From contig NZ_AJLE01000004.1 in assembly GCF_000296775.1 (NCBI RefSeq), forward strand, positions 1 through 64,000: a stretch of DNA of 64,000 bases. The letters are read 5' to 3'. The notes beneath the pieces are model-generated. The model was not told the origin of the DNA. It saw only the letters and a list, made by a program, of their open reading frames with translations, and did no database searches. A program made the translations under genes and the position numbers. Source of the DNA: Sulfurovum sp. AR. GTDB taxonomy: Bacteria; Campylobacterota; Campylobacteria; Campylobacterales; Sulfurovaceae. Each line of letters starts with the position of its first letter. Positions within the stretch are counted from its first letter, which is position 1. This document shows positions 20,030 to 32,146 of the stretch, one piece after another.

Positions 20030-21175
20030 CTATCGGCGAAGAGTTTTAGTATTTGGGTCTAAAATAAAAATATTTTCTTTTGCGGGTTCTTCTGTTGGTG
20101 CCGGAGAATACCCATCACCATAAATGTTGTCACTCATATAAACATTGGTCATATCACAAGTAGAACATACCCACATCGCATCTGGGCCATCAACATAGCC
20201 GACATACCAGTTATAGTGATAATCAGATCGGTCACGAGGCTCGCCTCTTACGTTATTGGCGCCCCAACCTTCACGATCACGCACACCAACATAGTTGTTT
20301 TCAAAAATAACATTACCTGCCGTAGTACCATCACCATCTCCACCATGCATATCAAAGAGGATGTTAGTTCCTGCTCCATAAGTTATGTTGTTCCTGGCAG
20401 TATAGCTTGTTCCTGCATCTCCGCTTGAAGCTATATTATGACGATTGTTTCCAAACTTGTTGTAATTTATTTCAGCATGTCCTACGAAAACAGATACACC
20501 GTAGCCGTATCCAGGGCGTTTATTATCATAGATGTCGCAGTGGTGTACGTTTAGGTTATTGCCGCTCCTGTCTGACCTGATACCCGCATAAGTCCATCCG
20601 TGTATAAGACAGTTATCTACTTCGATATTGTTCTTCTCTGTGGATATCCCTGTTACCATGTTTACTGAGGCTTCGGTACCGGAAGGACCCTGTATGTCAA
20701 GTCCGGTGAATCTAACGCCGTCAATGTTTACCACTATTGTTTTATGATAATTGTTGGAAAGACTGTCGTTTTTGATTACACCTCCAGTGGAACCGCCAAT
20801 TCCCCTGTTGCTTGCAAACGTAAGCTTTTTACTGATATAAAGCGAGGGTTGTCCTGTAAAGTCGATAGTCGCGCTTTCAGGGATATATATCACATCGTCT
20901 GTTGAGGCAGAAGAAATAGCGGATACCAATTCAGAGTATGATGTAACTGTGTAATCACCTGATGTTTTAATATCGAAGTAGCCAGCTCCTCCGCCTATTG
21001 GACCTCGGTAGTCAGGTTTGGCTCCATACACTTTACCATTCAGTTCTACCCATGAACCTTCTACGGCAGAGGAAGAAGATGGTAGGATAAAAAAGAGTGA
21101 TATTATGACAATGAGATATTTAACCATACTGTTTTTTATTCCAAAAGGAGTTGGAATCTTTGTTCTATTTTGCAT
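20030..21175 (-). CDS. Secreted right-handed beta-helix protein (polysaccharide lyase-like)
   Basis: 381 aa. The N-terminus has a positively charged stretch and then a signal helix (MVKYLIVIISLFFILPSSSSA). The body contains repeated short beta-strand turns (NNIEVDNCLIHGWTYAGI, NLNVHHCDIYDN, VIFENNYVGVRDREG) of a parallel beta-helix, as in pectate-lyase-like proteins. It is inferred to act outside the cell or in the periplasm on an exopolysaccharide, as a lyase, epimerase or binding protein; I see no decisive catalytic triad. The start at 21175 has AAAGGAAAAATA directly upstream, whereas the internal Met at 21127 has none. A cyclic-di-GMP-I riboswitch lies in the leader (21328-21404), so the gene is probably controlled by c-di-GMP. 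Confidence 0.85.
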   Translation of the reverse strand: MQNRTKIPTPFGIKNSMVKYLIVIISLFFILPSSSSAVEGSWVELNGKVYGAKPDYRGPIGGGAGYFDIKTSGDYTVTSYSELVSAISSASTDDVIYIPESATIDFTGQPSLYISKKLTFASNRGIGGSTGGVIKNDSLSNNYHKTIVVNIDGVRFTGLDIQGPSGTEASVNMVTGISTEKNNIEVDNCLIHGWTYAGIRSDRSGNNLNVHHCDIYDNKRPGYGYGVSVFVGHAEINYNKFGNNRHNIASSGDAGTSYTARNNITYGAGTNILFDMHGGDGDGTTAGNVIFENNYVGVRDREGWGANNVRGEPRDRSDYHYNWYVGYVDGPDAMWVCSTCDMTNVYMSDNIYGDGYSPAPTEEPAKENIFILDPNTKTLRR

Positions 21176-21327
21176 TATTTTTCCTTTTTTAATTTAACAA
21201 ACTATTTTAGTAATAAAACTTACAATTGTGAAAATTAAAATACAGAAAACTACTTTTTCAATTCTTTCGGTAGAATCTTGAAGTATCACATAAGACTTTA
21301 TTTTAGTATACAAAACAAAAGTATTAA

Positions 21328-21404
21328 GGTAACCCGGCTATCTCATCTACATAAAATAAGATCCGTAGCTTTCCGTCCCTGCTTCACAACAAGTTTGGCT
21401 TTTT
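21328..21404 (-). promoter_or_regulatory. Cyclic-di-GMP-I (GEMM) riboswitch upstream of beta-helix gene
   Basis: Read on the minus strand it has the GEMM-I landmarks in order: GCCAAAC, a hairpin with GTGAA-type loop, CAGGGACGGAAAGC, a variable P3 stem, and GATAGCCGGGTTACC at the 3' side. It ends 153 bases before the start codon of the beta-helix gene. The leader after it shows an imperfect TCAAGATTCT / AGAATTGA stem but no clear terminator, so the mode of control is open. Confidence 0.92.
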
Positions 21405-21764
21405 ACTGCATCATTGTATCATCAAACTATTACCACTGCATTACCTATATATTTAAGATATTTAGGTGCATACTTAGACTCAATCTTATCTATTGTATCA
21501 GTTTTATATTAAAATTTTTTGAAGGGATGAAAGACTTAAGTTTTTGGATTGATTAACATAGGGGCACCTTAAAAAAGATGGCAATAAAGTGTATTCAAAA
21601 TTTATAAAGTGATACAAATGCCTTTTAGAAAGTCCTATAAATTAGATTAGATATTATATTAAAATTTTTCAATAACTAATATTTTTAATTTTGCTTTCTT
21701 GATCATTACTATTTTAAATTCAGTTTGTTTTTAAATATTCTGACATATACTAATTATTACTTTA

Positions 21765-21832
21765 ATAAAGCCAAACTATCTGTAGAGATAGGACGGAAAG
21801 CAATGGGGCTCAAGTAGATCGCCAAGCCACTC
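21765..21832 (+). promoter_or_regulatory. Divergent cyclic-di-GMP-I riboswitch upstream of wecG
   Basis: GCCAAAC is followed by a perfect CTATC/GATAG hairpin, the invariant core GGACGGAAAGC, and a short P3 region ending GATCGCCAAGCC. The core matches the other four copies, but P3 is short and the 3' side departs from the GGGTTGCC-type ending, so ligand binding may be weakened or altered. It lies about 40 bases before the wecG start codon, close enough to act on translation initiation. Confidence 0.75.
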
Positions 21833-21873
21833 AGAAATTATTAGTTGAAATGTATATGATGAGAGGGGTATAA

Positions 21874-22599
21874 ATGTCAAATTTTTTAGGTATTAACTTT
21901 TTGTTTGAAAAAGAAGAGATCGAAAGAAAAATAGAAGACTTCATTGCTGACAGAAAGGTGACATATGTCTGTGCAGTGAACGCCAATACTGTTACTGTGG
22001 CAAACAATAATCCAGAATATAAAAAGATTATAAATAATTCAGGATTTAATTTATGTGATGGTTCTTTGTTGGCGTTGTTTTACAGAAAAATATACAAAGA
22101 ACCGGTTTCTTCTTATCCTGGTCCAGATTTTTTTATAGATTATCTAAGTAAAGGAAGGTATAAGTCCTTTTTTTTAGGTTCTACTGATGAGTTATTAAAG
22201 TCATTGAAACAAAAATTAGTAAAATATGATCCTAAAATTTCAGATATGCTATTTTATTCACCACCCTTTATTCCACTTGATAATTATAATTATGGATCGA
22301 TTGCGAAAATGATCAATGAAAGCAATGTAGATATTATTTGGGTTTCACTGGGAGCACCTAAGCAGGAAGAATTTATGTATAGGTTAAAACCATACCTCAA
22401 ACAAGGCATAATGGTTGGTGTCGGAGCAGCATTTACTTTTTATGGTGATGATAATTTTAAACGAGCACCTATAATTATGAGAAAAATGCACATAGAATGG
22501 GTATACAGGAATTTAAAAAATCCCTCTAAATCATTTCCACGATTATTAAAACAAATTCGGTCTGTTCCTATATTAATTTATAAGGAATTAAAAAAATGA
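21874..22599 (+). CDS. WecG/TagA/CpsF-family glycosyltransferase
   Basis: 241 aa, the normal length for the GT26 family. Motifs are VCAVNANTVTVANNNPEY (family N-terminal region), DGSLLALFYRK, PGPDFF, and WVSLGAPKQEEFMYRLKP followed by GVGAAFTFYGD, the conserved block of the family. GT26 enzymes add N-acetylmannosaminuronate, ManNAc or similar sugars to the lipid-linked primer sugar on the cytosolic side of the membrane. It may act right after the WecA-like initiating enzyme encoded at 25763-26755. RBS GAGAGGGG precedes the ATG and a c-di-GMP riboswitch the whole gene. Confidence 0.93.
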   Translation: MSNFLGINFLFEKEEIERKIEDFIADRKVTYVCAVNANTVTVANNNPEYKKIINNSGFNLCDGSLLALFYRKIYKEPVSSYPGPDFFIDYLSKGRYKSFFLGSTDELLKSLKQKLVKYDPKISDMLFYSPPFIPLDNYNYGSIAKMINESNVDIIWVSLGAPKQEEFMYRLKPYLKQGIMVGVGAAFTFYGDDNFKRAPIIMRKMHIEWVYRNLKNPSKSFPRLLKQIRSVPILIYKELKK

Positions 22600-23825
22600 A
22601 TCACAAAATCAAAGTCTTATTGCTTGATGGCCATACTATTCAGGTTCTGCCATTGGCAAAAGCACTGCGAAAAAAGAACTATCATGTTACAGCATTTTGT
22701 GAAGAGAAATTATCTTTTGGTTGGGCATCAAGATACCCTCATGAAAAAGTACTGTGCCCAAGTGCTATCAATGAGACGGATACCTATCTGAATTTTCTGG
22801 AAAAATTTCTCAAAAAAAACAGATATGATGTAACAATACCTCTTTTTAATGATACTGCTGAACTTATGAGTGAAAATAAAAAGAGGTTTAGCGTATATAC
22901 AAAGGTTGCCATACCTGATTATCATATTTTAATCCAGGGGCATGATAAAAACTTGACTATGAGTATTGCCAGGAAATTGAATATTCCGCATCCAAGAACA
23001 ATGGATTTGGAAAAAAACTCTCTTGAAGATGCTGTAGCATATTGCGGCCTTCCCTCATTAATTAAGCCAAATATCGCAGCCGGCGCAAGAGGTATCACAA
23101 GAGTAGATTCTTTGGATGAATTAAAATCAATTTATCAGGAGATACGAACTGAATTTGGACCATCAACTCTCCAGGAATTTATACCACAAACTGGATTTCA
23201 GTTTAAATGCCAGATGTTTAGAGACAATGACGGCAGTTTAAAGGCATCAACTGTACAAAAAAAATATCGTTTTTTTCCTATAACTGGAGGTAGTACAAGT
23301 TGCAGTGAGATTGTAGATAGGCTTGAGATTGTTGAATATTCAAAGCAAATACTTGATGAGATTAAGTGGACTGGTTTTGCTGATTTTGACTATATTCAAG
23401 ATCCGCGTGACAATAAATATAAAATCATGGAAATTAATCCTCGGGTGCCAGCCTGTATTCGGTCCTGTTTTGAGTCGGGAACTGATTTTGCAGAAATGAT
23501 TGTCCAGCAAGCTTTAGGAAAAAATGTTACATCTTATCAATCAACTCCCGGTATGATCTTGCGTTTTATGTCCTTGGACATCTTATGGTTTTTATTCAGC
23601 TCAAACAAAGAAAGGTTTGCAACTAAACCAAGTTGGTTCAAATTCTGGGGAAATAACATCTGCTATGAGGACGGAGCATGGGATGACCCACTGCCTATGT
23701 TTGCGGGGTTTATCCTTGGAATAAAAAAATACCTTAATCCAAAATTTCGGAAGTCTAAGCTCTCATTTAAGAGAAAATCTTCAAATAATGATTTACAGGA
23801 GTACAGGTCATGTCAGAAAGTATAA
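22596..23825 (+). CDS. ATP-grasp enzyme of polysaccharide locus
   Basis: 409 aa. The fold resembles the carbamoyl-phosphate-synthase-like ATP-grasp family: an N-terminal Rossmann-like pre-ATP domain (KVLLLDGHTIQVLPLAKAL), then LPSLIKPNIAAGARGITRV (ATP-binding lysine and glycine-rich loop, near 150). The metal-binding KIMEINPRVPAC follows near 280. Such enzymes ligate a carboxylate to an amine via acylphosphate; in surface-sugar loci they are thought to attach amino acids or similar groups, but the substrate here cannot be told. It overlaps wecG by four bases and the next gene by 16. Confidence 0.85.
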   Translation: MNHKIKVLLLDGHTIQVLPLAKALRKKNYHVTAFCEEKLSFGWASRYPHEKVLCPSAINETDTYLNFLEKFLKKNRYDVTIPLFNDTAELMSENKKRFSVYTKVAIPDYHILIQGHDKNLTMSIARKLNIPHPRTMDLEKNSLEDAVAYCGLPSLIKPNIAAGARGITRVDSLDELKSIYQEIRTEFGPSTLQEFIPQTGFQFKCQMFRDNDGSLKASTVQKKYRFFPITGGSTSCSEIVDRLEIVEYSKQILDEIKWTGFADFDYIQDPRDNKYKIMEINPRVPACIRSCFESGTDFAEMIVQQALGKNVTSYQSTPGMILRFMSLDILWFLFSSNKERFATKPSWFKFWGNNICYEDGAWDDPLPMFAGFILGIKKYLNPKFRKSKLSFKRKSSNNDLQEYRSCQKV

Positions 23826-24391
23826 ATGATAAAAATTTAGAATTAGTACAAAAAACACAGATGAGTAATCACGAAAAATTGGGTATTATAATCAAATCAA
23901 TATTTTCATTGCATTTTATAAAATCACTTATATCATCATTTGCTTATTATCTATTTGAACATGTTTACTGGAAGTTTGATATTACTACTAGGGGAGTTTA
24001 TAGGGTTCATGCTACAACTTCTATACGCAATGCAAAAAATATTTCTCTTGGCTTTGATACACGAATTACGACGAATTGCATTATATGGGCAGGTAAAACA
24101 TCTAAAATTACTATCGGTAACAATGTATTGATCGGACCAGGAGTACAACTTCATGCATCAAATCACGGATATGCACTAGATAAAGGACCTATGACTTACC
24201 AGGAGAAAATGGAAAAAGATATCATACTTGGGAATGATGTTTGGATCGGGGGTAATAGTGTGATTACGGCTGGAGTTACATTGGCGGATGGTATTATTGT
24301 GGCAGCTGGTTCTACAGTAACGAAAAGTTTTGATGAGAAAAATATTATTATCGGTGGTGTACCAGCAAAGAAAATTACACAAAGGAACTAA
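23810..24391 (+). CDS. Hexapeptide-repeat acyltransferase (WcaF/LbH type)
   Basis: 193 aa. After an N-terminal amphipathic part it has left-handed beta-helix repeats: ITIGNNVLIGPGVQLHASNH (with the catalytic-type His), then DVWIGGNSVITAGVTLADGI and AAGSTVTKSFDEKN with the usual C-terminal GGVPAKKI. This is typical of O-acetyltransferases that modify sugars in capsule and colanic-acid loci. It probably decorates the same glycan as its neighbours. It overlaps the ATP-grasp gene by 16 bases. Confidence 0.9.
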   Translation: MSESINDKNLELVQKTQMSNHEKLGIIIKSIFSLHFIKSLISSFAYYLFEHVYWKFDITTRGVYRVHATTSIRNAKNISLGFDTRITTNCIIWAGKTSKITIGNNVLIGPGVQLHASNHGYALDKGPMTYQEKMEKDIILGNDVWIGGNSVITAGVTLADGIIVAAGSTVTKSFDEKNIIIGGVPAKKITQRN

Positions 24392-24392
24392 A

Positions 24393-25256
24393 ATGAATGT
24401 ATTGACATTTGATATAGAAGATTGGTTCCATGTTTTGGATAACCCATCAACAAAAACTGAAAAGCAGTGGGTACAACTTGAGTGTAGAATCCACCAGAAT
24501 TTGGATAGAATTTTAGATATTTTAAAAAAGCACAATCAAAAAGCCACTTTTTTCTGTATTGGATGGGTGGCAAGAAGGTATCCTACCATTGTTAAAAAGA
24601 TTGACAATTACGGGCATGAAATCGGCAGTCATTCAGACATGCATCAGCTCGCCTATGAGTTCAATAGAGAAGAGTTCAGGCAGGATCTTGAACAATCGAT
24701 CAAGTCCATTGAAGATGTAGTCGGTAAAAAGGTAAGAGCATATAGAGCTCCTGGTTTTTCTCTCAAACATCAAAATAGTTGGATGCTTGAGGAGCTCAGC
24801 AAGCATGGTATTGAAATAGACTGTTCGGTATTTCCTGCACGAAGAGCACATGGTGGTTTTAAAGAATTTGGTCATGCAGAACCGGCATATGTTGAAATAG
24901 ATGGTGCTAGAATTAAAGAATTTCCAATTAATCTTTACTCGTTATTCGGGAAAAATATTATTTTTTCCGGCGGTGGATATTTTAGATTGATCCCATATCC
25001 ACTCATTAAATTCTTCATGAAAACATCCGATTATGTCATGGTCTATCTTCACCCAAGAGATTTTGATTATGATCAGCCAATGATAGAAGGGCTTTCAGCA
25101 TTTAGAAGATTTAAATCTTATGTTGGACTAAAAACTACATCCAATAAACTTGATAGATTACTTAATGATTTTGATTTTGTGGATTTACGTGAAGCAAATA
25201 AGAATATAGATTGGTCACAAGTCAAAACAATTAAACTTAATAGAAAAGACAAGTAA
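24393..25256 (+). CDS. Polysaccharide deacetylase, NodB family with DUF3473-like C-terminus
   Basis: 287 aa. It begins at once with the metal/catalytic motif TFDIEDWFH and has GHEIGSHSDMHQ with the two metal-binding histidines near 77. AYRAPGFSLKH follows near 117, and LHPRDFDYDQP near 215 belongs to the C-terminal DUF3473-type part found in exopolysaccharide-associated deacetylases. It removes N-acetyl groups from a glycan; the substrate is unknown. The start is the ATG at 24393, one base after the previous stop, with AAAGGA upstream; an in-frame Met at 24330 lies inside the acyltransferase gene and is not used. Confidence 0.9.
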   Translation: MNVLTFDIEDWFHVLDNPSTKTEKQWVQLECRIHQNLDRILDILKKHNQKATFFCIGWVARRYPTIVKKIDNYGHEIGSHSDMHQLAYEFNREEFRQDLEQSIKSIEDVVGKKVRAYRAPGFSLKHQNSWMLEELSKHGIEIDCSVFPARRAHGGFKEFGHAEPAYVEIDGARIKEFPINLYSLFGKNIIFSGGGYFRLIPYPLIKFFMKTSDYVMVYLHPRDFDYDQPMIEGLSAFRRFKSYVGLKTTSNKLDRLLNDFDFVDLREANKNIDWSQVKTIKLNRKDK

Positions 25257-25480
25257 TGGCTGGAGTTAAAAAAATTATATCGCGTTATAATGTTCTGAAT
25301 ATTCAAAACAACGTGATGTATGTAGCTAAAGGCTATGAAATTTATAAGAGTGATAATGAAGGAAAGAGTTGGGAGCTTGATGGCAGAGTAAGAGATAGTA
25401 AATATAGTATATGGGCAAAAAGTAGATTATTGGAGAGATTATTGGTTTTTTCAGAGGGGAAGTTTATAGAAAATTTATAG
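25256..25480 (+). pseudogene. Truncated BNR/beta-propeller glycosidase-like gene
   Basis: 74 codons overlapping the deacetylase stop by one base (TAATG). The protein starts like the first blade of a sialidase-type propeller: YVAKGYEIYKSDNEGKSWE contains the BNR Asp box (S-x-D-x-G-x-x-W). It then stops after a region that normally leads into further blades. Nothing resembling the remaining blades is found before the IS remnant, so the gene appears to be cut off at about 25480, perhaps by the same rearrangement that brought the IS3 fragment. Confidence 0.55.
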
Positions 25481-25574
25481 GAATGGAGCATCAATGAGTC
25501 GATAAATTACCTCTGGTTTTATCTAAGTATATTAGAGTTAGATCATCATTAAAGGAAAAAGTTAGGAGTATAAT

Positions 25575-25775
25575 GAACCCCAAAAACCATACCACTTAAA
25601 ACAACTTTCTTATTCCAAATGATAGAATATCAAATAAGAAAATTGTAGCATCTTAGCCTCATAATTGACTGGAGACATATATCCATTGGACGAATGAAGC
25701 CTCTATCTATTATAAAACACCTCTATGTATCAAAGATAGCCCGATTAGCCTCAGCTCTTGCTTTAACGTCTTTTA
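25575..25775 (-). mobile_element. Decayed IS3-family transposase end
   Basis: On the minus strand the sequence encodes KARAEANRAIFD, then after a frameshift YIEVFYNR-stop-RLHSSNGYMSPVNYE, the C-terminal end of IS3-family OrfB integrases (consensus YIEVFYNRxRLHSSLGYLSP). A frameshift and a TAG make it non-coding. The outer end contains TGAACCCCAAAAACCAT near 25574, resembling an IS3 terminal repeat. It is a different subgroup from the remnant at 19733 and points the opposite way; the 3' end of the WecA-like gene runs into it. Confidence 0.8.
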
Positions 25776-26755
25776 AGGCGCTGATCAAATAAATTTAAGT
25801 AGATAGAGAACAACAATATAAACAGAATCAAAGAAAGAAAATCACCTGCATGACTTACCTGATATCCTATAATAGAAAATATCATTTGCATCATGGTCAA
25901 GATGATGACCGTATAACGGATATCCCCTTTCACATTGAATAAGAAATGATGCATGTGATTTTTATCTGCATGAAATGGTGATATATGACGTTGCATGCGC
26001 CGTATCATTACGATAAATGTATCCAAGACAGGCAGTGCTACAATAAACAAAATAGATATAGGCGTAATGTACTGAGTCGAGTATATACCTAAAATAGATA
26101 TTACCATTCCTAACGAGAGTGAACCGCTATCACCCATAAATACTTTTGCAGGGTACCAATTAAACAACAAAAATGCGAAAAGAGTTACAATGAAGAATGA
26201 CGATAAGGAAATGATAAGTTCATCATGATGTAGTAAACCTATAGCTAAGAAAGTAACAAGTATCACCATAGAGATAGATGCAGCCAACCCATCTAAACCA
26301 TCCATTAAATTCAAGGCATTAGTGTAGCCTGCTATGGCAAAAAAGCTAAAAGGAAAAACCATCCAAGCTGGCAAGATGATTTCATATTCAAAATAAGTCC
26401 CTAAAGAATATATCGCAACATCATTGATATATAATATGATTGAAGAAACAAAAATAAAGATAAATTTTATTATCGGTGAAATATTTTTTAGATCATCCCA
26501 CACCCCTGCTATAAAGACCATAACAATAGCCAGATAGATATAATAGTATGTTTTCAAATATTCAAGATCAAATAGTAATAAAGTAATAAATATAGCCAGA
26601 ATAAAAGCAATACCTGCACCTCTTGGTATCGGTTTTTTGTGTACACTTCTTTCATTTGGAATATCTATCAATCCTACTTTCTGAGCAAAAAACATAAATA
26701 TAGCTATACCTGCTAAAGAAGATAAAAAAATATAAACTAATAACAGTTCATTCAT
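25763..26755 (-). CDS. WecA/MraY-like polyprenyl-phosphate sugar-1-phosphate transferase
   Basis: 330 aa with about 10 membrane helices. Family motifs are the N-terminal DIPNERSVHKKPIPRGAG, AGVWDDLKN (Mg-binding Asp pair region), NLMDGLDGLAAS, VFMGDSGSLSLG and the cytosolic PFHADKNHMHH histidine loop. It transfers a sugar-1-phosphate, often GlcNAc-1-P, to undecaprenyl phosphate and so would start the repeat unit. The ATG at 26755 has AAAGGA 7 bases upstream; the GTG at 26761 is too near that site. The last codons (RLKRR) overlap IS3-derived DNA, so the C-terminus may have been shortened or replaced. The gene faces away from the rest of the locus. Confidence 0.93.
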   Translation of the reverse strand: MNELLLVYIFLSSLAGIAIFMFFAQKVGLIDIPNERSVHKKPIPRGAGIAFILAIFITLLLFDLEYLKTYYYIYLAIVMVFIAGVWDDLKNISPIIKFIFIFVSSIILYINDVAIYSLGTYFEYEIILPAWMVFPFSFFAIAGYTNALNLMDGLDGLAASISMVILVTFLAIGLLHHDELIISLSSFFIVTLFAFLLFNWYPAKVFMGDSGSLSLGMVISILGIYSTQYITPISILFIVALPVLDTFIVMIRRMQRHISPFHADKNHMHHFLFNVKGDIRYTVIILTMMQMIFSIIGYQVSHAGDFLSLILFILLFSIYLNLFDQRLKRR

Positions 26756-27107
26756 AAACACATCCTTTACAATTAATGCTACTCCTAATAATACTATAAA
26801 ATAGACATATCAAGCAATATTCATACTAGTGAATTTATTCTTAAGATATTCATACAGTTCTATGAGTAATGTTTAAGTAATGCTCTTACAATATAATTTT
26901 CATCAAGTTAGTGAAAAAAGCCAAACCTGTTGTGAAGTAGGGACGGAAAGCCAAGGGTCTCAATTTTAATGAGATAGCCAAGTTGCCTTTGTTCAATACA
27001 AAGTAATACTATAGAGTACTGTTTTTATATAAAACTCTTCTATGCCTTCACAATAAATCTTTCTTCACAACAAACACGTCATCAATCGAAGAAGGAAATT
27101 CAAACCA
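26756..27107 (+). other. Leader region of the first surface lipoprotein
   Basis: The gap contains the divergent upstream DNA of the WecA-like gene, a -10 element TATAAT at 26892-26897, a GEMM aptamer at 26915-26990 and a short hairpin CTTTG/CAAAG just after it (about 26986-27002). A ribosome-binding site GAAGGAAA precedes the ATG at 27108. The whole leader is nearly repeated at 28640-28871. Confidence 0.8.
26915..26990 (+). promoter_or_regulatory. Cyclic-di-GMP-I riboswitch upstream of lipoprotein 1
   Basis: Contains GCCAAACC, a CCTG/TAGG hairpin with GTGAA loop, GGGACGGAAAGCC, a GTCTC/GAGAT P3 stem and AGATAGCCAAGTTGCC. All conserved parts of the GEMM-I aptamer are present. The promoter -10 TATAAT at 26892-26897 puts the transcript start within about 10 bases of the aptamer, as expected for a dedicated leader. 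The following 117 bases hold short hairpins and a T-rich tract near 27019 that could be the switching part. Confidence 0.93.
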
Positions 27108-28205
27108 ATGTTTAGACTTAACAATATCAAACAAAATTTACTTATCGTAGCTTTAGCAACATTTATTTCAGGTTGTGGTGGTGGTTCGACAACTACTTCA
27201 GAAGGAATAGCATCTACACCAGCTTTAAGTTCGAAAGCTATACAAGAAGGACAGGTGATAGATAGAGCTACAGGAAGAGGTCTAGCAAATGTCGAAGTAA
27301 ATATCGAATCACATACGACAACAACTGATGCAAATGGATTCTATAGACTAAATAATATAGCTGTAAATGACAATGCGGTAGTAAACTTTGAAAAAGATGG
27401 CTATCTCTTCGGTAGTACTAAGGTCCAGATAAAAGCATTATCTGGAGACAATACACCTTCTACGAATTACCTAGAGTATACGCTTGATACTTATAATACC
27501 CAATGGAGTTATGATAGCCAAGATGGATCTACTAGTGCTGCAGTTGAAATACCTGCAGGTACTATCCATACAGATGAATCAGAGAATGTCTATAATGGGG
27601 TTGTCTATAGTCGTTGGCTCTTTAAAGATACAATGACAGCTGAAGGACGAGATGCTTTTCCTGGTGCTTTTGAAGGAATGAACAACAATGGTATTGTTGT
27701 TCCATTTGTCTCCTATGGACTTATGTCAGTAGAATTAAAAGATGAAAATGGTGCTTCACTAAGCTTATCAGAAAATATAACTTTAGCACTTCCTTCAGTC
27801 ACAGGAACAACTGAAAATATCCTTTCACTTTGGTACTATGATTATGATCAGGGGTTATGGATTGAAGACGGTTTTGCTGAACGGCAGTCAGACGGAACAT
27901 ATCTTGGGGAAATCTCACACCCTGGAACATGGAGCCTGAGCCAACCCATTGAAGTAGAAGTCGGTATCTATCGTGGTTATATTCTCAATGTAGACGGATC
28001 TCCGATGAGTGACGCAAGAGTTTATGCAGTAGGAGATAACTGGATCAGCAGTGACCTCTCTACGGATCAGAATGGACAATTTGAGCTTGAAGTGATACCT
28101 GGTAACAATTTTCAGCTTTCAGCTTATAACTATAAAGATCAATATGAAGCTACATACAATGGTATAATGCCAATAATCGCTTCTGGAAATATTGTCGAAG
28201 GATAA
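27108..28205 (+). CDS. Surface lipoprotein with carboxypeptidase-regulatory-like domains
   Basis: 365 aa. The signal peptide ends in lipobox ISGC (Cys23), followed by a Gly/Ser/Thr linker. A carboxypeptidase-regulatory-like beta-sandwich covers about residues 46-95 (GQVIDRATGRGLANVEV, TTDANGFYRLNNI). A middle domain at 130-285 contains IPAGTI, AFPGAFEGMN and YYDYDQGLWIEDGFAE, a pattern seen in bacterial cell-surface proteins. A second regulatory-like domain lies at about 288-355 (IYRGYILNVDGSPMSDARV). No enzymatic motif is present; an adhesive or matrix role is inferred from the architecture and the c-di-GMP riboswitch. It is a paralogue of the gene at 28872, sharing its leader and the ends of the protein. 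Confidence 0.85.
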   Translation: MFRLNNIKQNLLIVALATFISGCGGGSTTTSEGIASTPALSSKAIQEGQVIDRATGRGLANVEVNIESHTTTTDANGFYRLNNIAVNDNAVVNFEKDGYLFGSTKVQIKALSGDNTPSTNYLEYTLDTYNTQWSYDSQDGSTSAAVEIPAGTIHTDESENVYNGVVYSRWLFKDTMTAEGRDAFPGAFEGMNNNGIVVPFVSYGLMSVELKDENGASLSLSENITLALPSVTGTTENILSLWYYDYDQGLWIEDGFAERQSDGTYLGEISHPGTWSLSQPIEVEVGIYRGYILNVDGSPMSDARVYAVGDNWISSDLSTDQNGQFELEVIPGNNFQLSAYNYKDQYEATYNGIMPIIASGNIVEG

Positions 28206-28449
28206 AATAGTCTTTTCTTTACATACAATAAACATTTAATATGGAGAAGCACACATAGTTTCTCCGTAGTTTAATTCTTCTATATTCACTATCATTTAAC
28301 ATTGATCTCAAAGTCTAAGATGATAATTCATCAATTTAATTGATTATAAACATATATTTTAATTTTATATTATTTTCAGTTTAATTATGTATTATTCCGA
28401 TACGACTATGATTTAAGGTATTACTTAATCATAAGTTTCAGAAATAAAA

Positions 28450-28525
28450 GTATTAGGCCAAACCTGTTGTGAAGCAGGGACGGAAAGCTTCAGGTCTTTT
28501 GAAAAGAAGATAGCTGGGTTGCATT
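28450..28525 (+). promoter_or_regulatory. Cyclic-di-GMP-I riboswitch, first of tandem pair
   Basis: GGCCAAACC, hairpin CCTG/CAGG with GTGAA loop, GGGACGGAAAGC, P3 and AGATAGCTGGGTTGC are all present. Directly after it a perfect 11-bp all-A/T stem (28523-28533 with 28557-28567) overlaps the 3' edge of the aptamer, a plausible alternative structure that the ligand could regulate. There is no start codon with a long frame between it and the next aptamer. Confidence 0.92.
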
Positions 28526-28644
28526 TATTTAAAATAGTCGTATCTCTTATGATCAATTTAAATAAATTATAACTTTTAACTAAAGTTTATAATCCTAATC
28601 TTATATACAGTCCAGTGGGTAATATTGAAGTAATACTCTTTTAA

Positions 28645-28650
28645 TATAAT
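28645..28650 (+). promoter_or_regulatory. -10 element TATAAT of the second lipoprotein leader
   Basis: TATAAT sits about 20 bases before the aptamer, in a context (GTAATnCTCTTnnAATATAAT) that matches the same position before lipoprotein 1 (TATAAT at 26892-26897). A clear -35 is not seen, which is usual for Campylobacterota promoters. Confidence 0.6.
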
Positions 28651-28667
28651 GCCCATCAAGTTAGGGA

Positions 28668-28745
28668 GAAAAGCCAAACCTGTTGTGAAGCAGGGACGGA
28701 AAGCCAAGGGTCTCATAATAATACTGAGATAGCCTAGTTGCCTTT
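28668..28745 (+). promoter_or_regulatory. Cyclic-di-GMP-I riboswitch, second of tandem pair
   Basis: Near-identical to the aptamer at 26915-26990: GCCAAACC, CCTG/CAGG hairpin, GGGACGGAAAGCC, GTCTC/GAGAT P3 and AGATAGCCTAGTTGCC. It lies 127 bases before the ATG of the 695-aa lipoprotein. A CTTTG/CAAAG hairpin follows it, as in the paralogous leader. Confidence 0.93.
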
Positions 28746-28871
28746 GTAACATACAAAGTAATGCTATATTATAGTGGTTTATACCGTTCTTCAAAGAAAA
28801 ATATTTTCTATTTACTTCATAACAAATTTTCTTCACAACAACACGTTCATAAAAGAAGGAAAATTTAAACA

Positions 28872-30959
28872 ATGTTTAGACTTAACAATATCAAACAAAA
28901 CATACTTATAGTAGCTATTGCAGCTTTGCTAACAGGTTGTGGAGGTGGTGGATCAACAGATTCTACAATAGATTCAACTATCAACCTAAAACCCGTGTCT
29001 GTTCCTGCTGATACAATAGATGTAACAGAAAATTCTGCAACTATAGATCTCACAAATTGGTTAGAGAAGAGCTATACTGTAACAGAAGTAAAATATGATT
29101 ATATTACTAACAATAACTATGGTTCATCTATTACCATAAATGATACTGAAAGTACGGTTACCTTAGTTAATTTAGAATCTAGTACAACATATCATTATCA
29201 AATAATAGGTGTTGACAACAACGGTAAAAAGATTTCAAATAAAGAAGATATTCTCACTTTTACAACTAAACCAGCACTACAAACAGAACCGGCGCCAATA
29301 CCGTTAACAATTAATTCTATTTCGGATAGTAGTACAACAGAAAATTCAACACTTATTACCTGGGAACTAAGCAACTATGCAACAGGACAAGTAGAATACG
29401 GAATTACTAATAATTATGGTAATTTTTCTACAAAAGAAACGAGTTTCAATTATAATAAACATATCCAACTACTCTCTAATCTTAAACCTGACACTACCTA
29501 TCATTATAGAGTCATCTCAACAGATGAAAATGGTAATACTGTTATAAGTGACGACCAAACCTTTCAAACACTACCAGCACCAACCGAACCGATTGTAACT
29601 GAGCCAGCGCCAAGTGAACCAATCATAACGGAACCGATCGTAACAGAACCAGTACCAAGCGAACCGATCGTAACTGAACCAGCGCCAATACCTTTAACAA
29701 TTAATTCTATTTCGGATAGTAGTACAACAGAAAATTCAACACTTATTACCTGGGAACTAAGCAACTATGCAACAGGACAAGTAGAATACGGAATTACTAA
29801 TAATTATGGTAATTTTTCTACAAAAGAAACGAGTTTCAATTATAATAAACATATCCAACTACTCTCTAATCTTAAACCTGACACTACCTATCATTATAGA
29901 GTCATCTCAACAGATGAAAATGGTAATACTGTTATAAGTGATGACCAAACTTTTAAAACACTGTCTAGTTGTCAGAGTGGACCAGCTCAACATTTAGGAC
30001 AAGTTAAAGACACTACTTCCGATACTGGTTTAGTAGATGTTACAGTAACGATCGCTGGTTGTTCTACTAAAACCGATGCAAATGGGTTCTATAGACTAAA
30101 TAATATAGTTGAAAATCAGAATGCAGTTGTGACTTTTGAAAAAGAGGGATATCTCCTCGGAAGTACTAAAATCCAGATCAAAGAGTTATCTGGAGACAGT
30201 ACACCTTCTACGAATTATCTAGAGTATGCTCTTGATACTTATGATACTGAATGGAGTTTTGATAGTCAAACTAGTGTTGATGATACTCATATTAACATAC
30301 CTGCTTCAGTCTATACAACTACAGATGGTAATCCCTACAGTGGTGTAGTTTCAGTTGCGTTAGAAATACAAGATGTTACAACAGATCTAGGAAAAAGAAT
30401 CTTTTCTGGCTCATTTGAAGGTCAAAACACATATGGTGAGATACAACAGTTTGTTTCTCATGGTCTTATCAGTTTATTATGTAAAGATGCGAATGGTAAT
30501 CTACTCAATTTTGCTGAAGGCAGCAGTGCAACATTGACATTTGATGCAGTATCTTCTATGGATGGAGCGAATATCATTCCACTTTGGTATTATGATTATG
30601 ATCAGGGGTTATGGATCGAAGAAGGTTATGCTGAATTGCAGGCAGATGGTACATACCATGGTGAAATATCACACCCGGGAACATGGAGTTTAAGTCAGCC
30701 GATTGAGAACACTCCTGGTATCTATCGTGGTTATATTCTCAATGTAGACGGATTACCTATGAGTGACGTAAGAGTCTACGCCATAGGAGATAACTGGGTA
30801 AGCAGCGATCTCTCTACGGATGCAAATGGTTTATTTGAACTCGAAGTGATTCCAGATAGTAGTTTTCAACTCAAGGCGTATAATTACAAAGATAATTATG
30901 AAGCCGTATATAATGGGACGATAGATCCAATCGCTTCTGGCGTAATAGTTGGAAATTAA
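28872..30959 (+). CDS. Large surface lipoprotein with FN3-like repeats
   Basis: 695 aa. The lipoprotein signal (TGCGGGG after the lipobox) is nearly identical to the paralogue at 27108. Domains in order: an FN3-like domain at about 35-135; a second FN3-like unit at about 141-232 (YATGQVEYGITNNYG, TTYHYRVISTDENGN); a Pro/Glu/Thr linker of EPIVTEPAPS-type repeats; a third unit at 271-362 nearly identical to the second even in DNA; then a carboxypeptidase-regulatory-like domain. The same middle and C-terminal domains as the paralogue complete it (YYDYDQGLWIEEGYAE, IYRGYILNVDGLPMSDVRV). It looks like an extended stalk lipoprotein for adhesion or biofilm matrix; no enzyme motif is seen. Two GEMM riboswitches precede it. 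Confidence 0.85.
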   Translation: MFRLNNIKQNILIVAIAALLTGCGGGGSTDSTIDSTINLKPVSVPADTIDVTENSATIDLTNWLEKSYTVTEVKYDYITNNNYGSSITINDTESTVTLVNLESSTTYHYQIIGVDNNGKKISNKEDILTFTTKPALQTEPAPIPLTINSISDSSTTENSTLITWELSNYATGQVEYGITNNYGNFSTKETSFNYNKHIQLLSNLKPDTTYHYRVISTDENGNTVISDDQTFQTLPAPTEPIVTEPAPSEPIITEPIVTEPVPSEPIVTEPAPIPLTINSISDSSTTENSTLITWELSNYATGQVEYGITNNYGNFSTKETSFNYNKHIQLLSNLKPDTTYHYRVISTDENGNTVISDDQTFKTLSSCQSGPAQHLGQVKDTTSDTGLVDVTVTIAGCSTKTDANGFYRLNNIVENQNAVVTFEKEGYLLGSTKIQIKELSGDSTPSTNYLEYALDTYDTEWSFDSQTSVDDTHINIPASVYTTTDGNPYSGVVSVALEIQDVTTDLGKRIFSGSFEGQNTYGEIQQFVSHGLISLLCKDANGNLLNFAEGSSATLTFDAVSSMDGANIIPLWYYDYDQGLWIEEGYAELQADGTYHGEISHPGTWSLSQPIENTPGIYRGYILNVDGLPMSDVRVYAIGDNWVSSDLSTDANGLFELEVIPDSSFQLKAYNYKDNYEAVYNGTIDPIASGVIVGN
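29293..29957 (+). repeat. Tandem 390-bp-period duplication inside the FN3 lipoprotein gene
   Basis: Bases 29293-29567 recur at 29683-29957 with only a few substitutions, mostly at the ends. Between them lies a linker of degenerate CCGATCGTAACTGAACCAG-type units. The near-identity means a recent duplication or gene conversion, and a substrate for copy-number change. Confidence 0.93.
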
Positions 30960-31408: not shown

Positions 31409-32146
31409 ATGAAAACAATGAACCTCAAAATATACTCTCTTTTAATCTCAATTTTTGCCTTGTTAACTTTTAGTGGATGTGACTCTTCTAGCTCTCCAGG
31501 ACAACCTGCTGGTGAGACAGAGGCAGAATGTCTATTGAATGCAGGAGGATATGTAGCCATTGAGATCAATGGTTGAACCTGGTTGGATAGAAACCTTGGT
31601 GCCAGTCAAGCTGCAACTGAAACAAATGATTCTCTAGCATACGGTGATTACTATCAGTGGGGACGGTATGCAGATGGTCATGAGAAAAACGATTCAGAAG
31701 TATGCGATGCGTTTTTAGCCACAGACCTAAACGATAGTAATACTTCCGATTGGTATGCACAATTCATTGTACCTCCTTCAGGTCCTCATGATTGGGTAGC
31801 TGCTGATGTTGATGATAATGGTAGTTTAAGATCTGCATCTTGGAACACACCTTATGATGATAATCAAGTGTGTCCATGTGGTTATGTTGTAGCTACGGAA
31901 AATGATTTTAAAGATCTCAATATTACTGATACCAATGTTTCGAATGACTTTAAATTAGCATATGCAGGATATAGATCGCCCGATAGTTCATTAGGTGGTG
32001 TTGATACTATGGCAATTTATTGGACAAGTGATACTAATGATACCAATGGAAGAGGATCAATTCCTTATGATTTAATAGGTGATGGTAGAGCTTCAGATCA
32101 TAAAAGAGCTTATGGTCTACCAATACGTTGTATTAAACCTCAATAA
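31409..32146 (+). pseudogene. FISUMP-domain lipoprotein gene with in-frame TGA
   Basis: The frame starts with a lipoprotein signal peptide (ISIFALLTFSGC) and reaches TGA at codon 56 (31574-31576) within AIEING-stop-TWLDRNLGAS. It then continues in the same frame to 32146. The second part is a typical Fibrobacter succinogenes major paralogous domain: TWLDRNLGASQAATETNDSL, YGDYYQWGRYADGHE, CPCGYVVATENDF and GLPIRCIK at the end. In relatives the residue at the stop is an ordinary amino acid, so one base change explains it. The body is otherwise undamaged, suggesting a recent mutation, a sequencing error or readthrough. Full length would be 245 residues. Confidence 0.82.

Follow-up and report, generated by a model that had tools for sequence, protein, structure and literature searches.

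The stretch of DNA analysed here (the window, 64,000 nucleotides (nt) of Sulfurovum sp. AR, Campylobacterota) contains exactly five aptamers of the cyclic di-GMP (c-di-GMP) class I, or GEMM-I, riboswitch above the Rfam gathering score, close to an exopolysaccharide (EPS) locus. We consider it likely that this locus is one station of a c-di-GMP-I riboswitch regulon that extends throughout the genus Sulfurovum. Each aptamer, lying near the 5′ end of its mRNA, would bind c-di-GMP and compete with structures in the leader through which the downstream gene is controlled, and the outputs would be surface and envelope proteins. At the sequence level this reading is carried by the aptamers themselves, their fold, a c-di-GMP-type pocket, the gene context and covarying elements in the leaders, from which we infer ligand binding and the direction and level of control. 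Such a regulon names candidate c-di-GMP effectors and a testable list of targets in a sulfur-oxidising genus, and its more than 100 leaders form a natural series for how one aptamer is wired to varied outputs.

Five c-di-GMP-I aptamers in the window

The whole window was scanned against Rfam 15 with cmscan, for which the gathering score of the c-di-GMP-I family (RF01051) is 35 bits. No other Rfam family exceeded its gathering score anywhere in the window. Aptamer 1 (21324-21408, minus strand; 66.8 bits with RF01051, 63.6 bits with RF03167) lies in the leader of a gene for a beta-helix-like protein. Aptamer 2 (21760-21834, plus strand), in the leader of the wecG operon, is the weakest copy, with 41.9 bits and a degenerate P3. 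Aptamer 3 (26910-26990, plus strand; 57.8 bits with RF01051) precedes the first of two lipoprotein genes, while aptamer 4 (28447-28526, plus strand; 62.4 bits with RF01051) and aptamer 5 (28664-28746, plus strand; 59.8 bits with RF03167, 59.7 bits with RF01051) precede the second. Since the latter two form a tandem, with no gene between them and the gene start at 28872, the five aptamers (41.9-66.8 bits with RF01051) make four regulated leaders. Tandems are likewise found in leaders L043, L111, L067, L050, L055 and L057. The exact core GGACGGAAAGC occurs five times in the window, each time inside an aptamer. A preliminary description of this DNA, made from its letters alone, had claimed five c-di-GMP-I riboswitches, with ends no more than 4 nt from those found here. 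All five exceed the gathering score, the genes it named behind them (for a beta-helix protein, a WecG/TagA glycosyltransferase and two lipoproteins) are present, and the covariance scan it proposed placed every copy above threshold and raised the count in the genome to 21.

The fold was assessed on 108 aptamers from the genus and the window, with Vc2 numbering placed on the alignment by our own mapping. P1b, P2 and P3 are conserved with compensatory changes, 97.7% of cells being paired and 16 of 19 pairs changed on both sides, and none of 500 shuffles reached any of the five observed measures. Among the 21 aptamers of the genome itself, 11 of the 19 pairs show a compensatory change; mismatches in P3 occur in the aptamer at 21760. 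The pocket residues are nearly invariant (G20 and A47 in 108/108, C92 in 106/108), and all three are kept in the five window aptamers, aptamer 2 included. Judged by sequence, the window aptamers would be genuine c-di-GMP sensors. They are ordinary members of the known class, sharing with RF01051 the P1b-P2-P3 fold, a GNRA-type P2 loop, the G20/A47/C92 pocket and a place before surface and signalling genes, but differing in P1b, which reads GCC...CGG here and GGC...CGC in the class.

Some copies, above all aptamer 2, may be decaying, non-functional remnants, which we hold to be a serious possibility though not the favoured one. Aptamer 2 combines its low score with broken P3 pairs, no downstream hairpin and a gap of only 39 nt to the gene, and in Clostridioides difficile function was demonstrated for only 11 of the 16 predicted switches (PMC6200980). 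However, aptamer 2 retains G20, A47 and C92 and a 7-nt P1, and the accessibility of the Shine-Dalgarno (SD) sequence in the wecG leader is predicted to rise on folding.

A set of switches common to the genus

The 2.13-Mb, 11-contig assembly of the genome contains 21 c-di-GMP-I aptamers, all over the cut-off, and 16 of these lie outside the window locus. GEMM-I aptamers are present in 56 of 61 Sulfurovum genomes in 1 to 21 copies, several other genomes having 16-18 and that of the cultured S. lithotrophicum having five; strict filters were applied to such counts in the larger samples. In an evenly drawn phylum sample a match was obtained in 25 of 298 genomes, and copies outside the genus were few (no more than 7 among the candidates scored; since 14 candidates were scored per genome, these copy counts are lower bounds).

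Among the targets in the genome itself are a large secreted protein with pseudopilin-like genes after it and a short one, also secreted, as well as a small membrane protein, a subtilase and a DUF4382 lipoprotein (both behind tandem aptamers) and a lipoprotein with acidic repeats. Aptamers also precede genes for a hybrid histidine kinase, three PAS sensor proteins, a GGDEF-EAL protein, an L,D-transpeptidase and, within a lasso-peptide-like cluster, an ABC exporter. The commonest domains among 68 targets in the genus are CarboxypepD_reg, DUF4382, PAS, SdrD_B, LysM/NlpC and cadherin- and Ig-like domains, with no polysaccharide-synthesis domain among them. The regulon is one of surface, envelope and signalling proteins, among them lipoproteins, adhesin-like proteins, PAS sensors and cell-wall enzymes. 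The RNA-level regulon previously suggested for this locus is borne out, but as a genome-wide set of 21 aptamers common to the genus rather than as a matrix regulon specific to the locus.

The genus is well supplied with c-di-GMP turnover domains, with GGDEF found in 59 of 61 genomes and 14 GGDEF and 10 EAL domains in the genome under study. No PilZ domain was found in that genome, and none of the 61 genus genomes has one over the cut-off, two weak sub-threshold matches occurring in a single genome. In the phylum sample PilZ exceeds the cut-off in 58 of 200 genomes, none of them in the same family as Sulfurovum. Because no PilZ, the usual protein sensor domain, is recognisable in the genus, RNA may carry much of its c-di-GMP output and take a large share in raising or lowering the expression of surface-protein genes. 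Sulfurovum has been described as lacking chemosensory and flagellar genes, in a survey of signalling in Campylobacterota that only counts turnover enzymes, describes effectors as not known and does not use the word riboswitch (PMC9239204); metabolite riboswitches have been described as almost absent from Campylobacter jejuni and its relatives (PMC3847290). An open-library search for Sulfurovum and riboswitch returned no literature treating c-di-GMP switches.

Several targets stand out individually. The GGDEF-EAL gene lies 40 nt behind its aptamer (G000:C5:83614-83713, minus strand; L041), so that feedback of c-di-GMP on its own turnover is possible. At G000:C6 400693-407538 (L031, L038) a tandem precedes the subtilase gene, and a third aptamer precedes the genes for the ABC exporter, a transglutaminase-like protein and an asparagine-synthase-like protein, near a PqqD-like open reading frame (ORF); this lasso-peptide-like cluster is possibly under c-di-GMP control. 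The hybrid histidine kinase gene is separated from its aptamer at G000:C11:140166 (L016) by a small ORF (MDYRVKNTIKDLFQ...) that has an SD of its own and may encode a leader peptide. An odd target is threonine synthase, 248 nt behind the aptamer at G000:C11:57837-57911 (L040).

Structures in the leaders

The leaders were examined with start codons picked by rule, and aptamer-leader complementarity was scored as contiguous helices, RNAduplex being uninformative as it allows large loops. A TATAAT box resembling a −10 element (26892-26897, plus strand) lies just upstream of aptamer 3, suggesting that the mRNA starts not far ahead of the aptamer, and −10-like boxes are found in 61 of 123 leaders compared with 32.8 in shuffles.

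Pairing goes up directly after C92. Across 121 leaders, the stretch from −8 to +36 relative to the end of the aptamer exceeds its shuffles in stability (mean z −1.04, p = 1e-13), which was not the case for segments starting at +20 or later in the same leaders. In P1, the helix between the 5′ and 3′ flanks of the aptamer, the leader's own partner beats all 200 permutations. On average 59% of the P1 3′ strand recurs in the hairpin that abuts the aptamer, after which pyrimidines peak. The example behind aptamer 4 (28523-28567, plus strand), whose 5′ strand doubles as the P1 3′ strand, is kept in four genomes with two compensated pairs. The sharing of the P1 3′ strand by the abutting hairpin, followed by a pyrimidine-rich stretch, suggests a pilM-type transcriptional ON switch in most leaders of the genus. 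In the Geobacter pilM switch (GEMM-Ib, ON) the 3′ strand that stabilises the aptamer is likewise reused in a downstream hairpin, the two being mutually exclusive (PMC9262584); however, pilM senses cyclic GMP-AMP (cGAMP), whereas the Sulfurovum pocket is of the c-di-GMP type and its terminator tails are weaker. A simple terminator search in the 21 leaders of the genome found almost none.

A second type of structure involves an element further downstream that covaries with the 5′ strand of the aptamer, as in GAAAAAG/CUUUUUC and UUGUUGUG/UACAACAA. The mean for a leader's own pair is 11.97 compared with 11.20, the maximum in 300 permutations being 11.73, and G20 itself is included in 31 of 55 strong helices of this kind. 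Such an element would compete with ligand binding. In the leader of the beta-helix gene a candidate anti-aptamer, GUAGUUUUCUGU (21242-21253, minus strand), has 12 nt of complementarity to the ACGGAAAGCUAC core of aptamer 1; the helix has a predicted energy of −18.8 kcal (p = 0.002 versus dinucleotide shuffles) and was found in one genome only. The abutting hairpin and the elements complementary to the 5′ strand or the P2 loop are probable expression platforms. We know of no described c-di-GMP-I member whose expression platform carries complements of the P2 loop or the 5′ strand.

In the leaders of large adhesin genes (L062, L115, L048 and L061) a second small hairpin (CAUC...GAUG) holds in its loop a CUUUUUC-like pyrimidine stretch that is complementary to the A-rich 5′ strand of the aptamer.

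A candidate translational toggle before the lipoprotein genes

Both lipoprotein leaders in the window contain CUUCACAACA 41-45 nt before the start codon, 10 nt being complementary to the arm and loop of their own P2. It is preceded by a stretch of 9-10 nt complementary to the SD, which overlaps its first 3-4 nt. In the first leader the candidate toggle element is TCTTTCTTCACAACA (27058-27072, plus strand), the first 9 nt of which match the SD strand GAAGAAGGA (27088-27096, plus strand) and the last 10 nt the arm and loop of P2 in aptamer 3. In the second it is AAATTTTCTTCACAACA (28824-28840, plus strand), where AAATTTTCTT can pair with the SD strand AGGAAAATTT (28857-28866, plus strand) and CTTCACAACA with the arm and loop of P2 in aptamer 5. 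Both helices are kept in five homologous leaders of the MFRL type even though the sequence of the SD-covering helix changes, and in leader L111:2376 the aptamer reads TGTTGTGAAACA, which is compensated in the element by TGTTTCACAACA over a match of 12 nt. Among the more distant lipoprotein leaders, L050, L055 and L072 keep CUUCAC, which lies inside an SD-covering helix in L050 and L055. Across 115 leaders, the complement of the leader's own P2-loop hexamer occurs in 13, compared with 2.4 in shuffles.

The CUUCAC element would pair either with the P2 loop (GUGAAG) or, together with its neighbours, with the SD. A bound aptamer would keep the P2 loop docked, leaving CUUCAC free to cover the SD and turn translation off. 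We propose that the lipoprotein leaders are probably translational toggles of this OFF type. SD accessibility is predicted to fall on aptamer folding from 0.09 to 0.03 and from 0.34 to 0.25 in the two leaders, which is too little to prove an OFF switch.

Alternatively, all of the leaders, those of the lipoproteins included, could be pilM-type transcriptional ON switches and the CUUCAC/SD arrangement a coincidence. The abutting hairpin with its P1 overlap in most leaders and the pilM precedent, with its mutually exclusive aptamer and terminator (PMC9262584), are consistent with this, but no U-tract follows that hairpin in the lipoprotein leaders, and these conserve both CUUCAC and an SD-covering helix of changing sequence. 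We regard a uniform ON mechanism as conceivable but rather doubtful. A broader proposal, put forward tentatively, is that Sulfurovum has moved its c-di-GMP output largely onto RNA and that the EPS-linked lipoprotein platform directly reads the GNRA-type P2 loop, translation being switched by the docking of the tetraloop when c-di-GMP binds. What is less ordinary about this otherwise familiar class is the number of aptamers in the genus, the lack of a recognisable PilZ and the candidate P2-loop toggle.

Several observations weigh against the regulon as proposed here. The P3 of aptamer 2 is broken and its leader shows no clear platform, and terminator-like structures are weak, reaching p ≤ 0.05 in 15 of 101 leaders (5 expected). 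Predicted SD accessibility changes little on aptamer folding in most leaders (shifts above 0.2 were 11 down and 2 up among 86), and these values do not support translational control as a general rule. The p-values overstate independence because the leaders are related by descent. On the protein side, the genome encodes one MshEN domain, and a divergent PilZ, degenerate GGDEF or EAL domains or other c-di-GMP-binding proteins may serve as receptors.

Genes behind the aptamers and origin of the cluster

The secreted beta-helix-like protein (381 residues; 20030-21175, minus strand), encoded 149 nt after aptamer 1, has a signal-peptide-like N-terminus. The wecG operon comprises four genes (21874-25256): a WecG/TagA/CpsF glycosyltransferase 39 nt after aptamer 2 (21874-22599, plus strand; PF03808, E = 7.7e-35; relative in PDB 7mpk), an ATP-grasp protein (22596-23825, plus strand), a hexapeptide acetyltransferase (23810-24391, plus strand) and a polysaccharide deacetylase close to the XrtA-system type (24330-25256, plus strand). 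Lipoprotein 1 (365 residues; 27108-28205, plus strand), 117 nt after aptamer 3, has a lipobox-like SGCGG and a CarboxypepD_reg-like domain (PF13620, E = 3.5e-15). Lipoprotein 2 (695 residues; 28872-30959, plus strand), 126 nt after the tandem, has Fn3-like repeats and a CarboxypepD_reg domain. The two are paralogues, homologous in both protein and leader. A near-identical internal repeat of ∼90 residues (PLTINSISDSS...QTF) is present in lipoprotein 2 and not in lipoprotein 1. A long gap separates lipoprotein 2 from an ORF with a Fib_succ_major domain (31583-32146) that has only a TTG start and may be a truncated or decayed gene.

Five of 21 aptamers within 7.42 kb was matched by none of 20,000 random placements. 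When tandems and paralogous copies are merged the cluster reduces to 3 of 17 independent units (P = 0.02). Homology links the leaders of lipoproteins 1 and 2 with one another and with two leaders of G027, a genome of the same species, where the tandem stands before the first lipoprotein instead of the second; in a third genome (G003) one lipoprotein of the cassette again follows a tandem and the next a single aptamer. The cassette lies beside wza and wzc homologues in each of the three genomes, with genes for secreted proteins or deacetylases near. The DUF4382 lipoprotein with its tandem aptamers is also duplicated in G027, giving five aptamers in 8.9 kb (L044). Because the lipoprotein and DUF4382 cassettes duplicate together with their switches, the copies appear to have spread with their genes. 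The high local count would reflect a three-aptamer lipoprotein cassette resident at the EPS locus and duplicating with its switches, to which the beta-helix and wecG switches found in this genome would add two. The earlier idea that the switch was duplicated and recruited several times is not borne out in that form, three of the five copies belonging to one duplicated cassette instead of being separate recruitments.

A rival reading, after the earlier description of a c-di-GMP-controlled matrix locus, is a dedicated locus in which aptamers were recruited singly to coordinate polymer tailoring, matrix degradation and adhesins. Genes of EPS synthesis and modification (wza, wzc, wecA, wecG and a deacetylase) do adjoin the aptamers, the lipoprotein cassette is at an EPS locus in three genomes, and some clustering remains after merging. 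However, most of the genome's aptamers lie elsewhere, three of the five here are the duplicated cassette, and nothing at the G027 locus corresponds to the beta-helix and wecG aptamers. The main EPS operon has no aptamer by cmscan, nor do most of the EPS genes (window 5-19 kb); only the wecG operon carries one, and that is the weakest copy. The proposed matrix degradation is not supported, as the beta-helix-like protein matches PF13229 weakly and below the cut-off (E = 3.8e-4) and no relative of solved structure was found in the PDB. We therefore think it unlikely that the locus is a dedicated matrix locus, the earlier term being apt only in part, and prefer to see it as one station of the genus-wide regulon.

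The density of switches had also been thought unusual, but there is a published precedent in Desulfobacca acetoxidans, with seven riboswitches in 7 kb, three of them c-di-GMP-I aptamers (PMC9481103). The two dense clusters differ in that the mixed classes in D. acetoxidans are thought to form logic gates, whereas the Sulfurovum locus has one class.

Ligand class and comparison with known systems

Aptamers of the cGAMP type have a changed base, A20, at the selectivity position. That cGAMP is what the Sulfurovum aptamers sense, or that they bind cyclic dinucleotides promiscuously (GEMM-Ib), is very improbable, since, although the fold is identical and Geobacter is rich in GEMM-Ib switches (PMC8835794), the selectivity position at which cGAMP types are altered (PMC9481103) is G in 108/108. 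The c-di-GMP-I-GGC variant (RF03167, threshold 59), which the window aptamers match at 63.6 and 59.8 bits above and 58.8, 54.7 and 45.6 bits below that value, was rejected on the basis of A at position 47 in all aptamers, the RF03167 consensus GACGCGAAGC being read here as G at that position.

The nearest regulon in scale is that of C. difficile 630, whose 16 c-di-GMP riboswitches of two classes are said to exceed the number in all genomes but a few deltaproteobacteria (PMC6200980). Both organisms have many switches per genome before adhesin, pilus, protease and signalling genes. They differ in that C. difficile is a Firmicute in which class I is OFF, whereas Sulfurovum has 21 class I aptamers in a campylobacterotal genome of 2.1 Mb. 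The arrangement at 28447 and 28664, with two aptamers in one leader and a structure of its own after each, is like that of known tandem c-di-GMP-I riboswitches (PMC9481103, PMC4759541) and does not differ from them in principle; in Sulfurovum the tandem before the lipoproteins is conserved in at least seven genomes.

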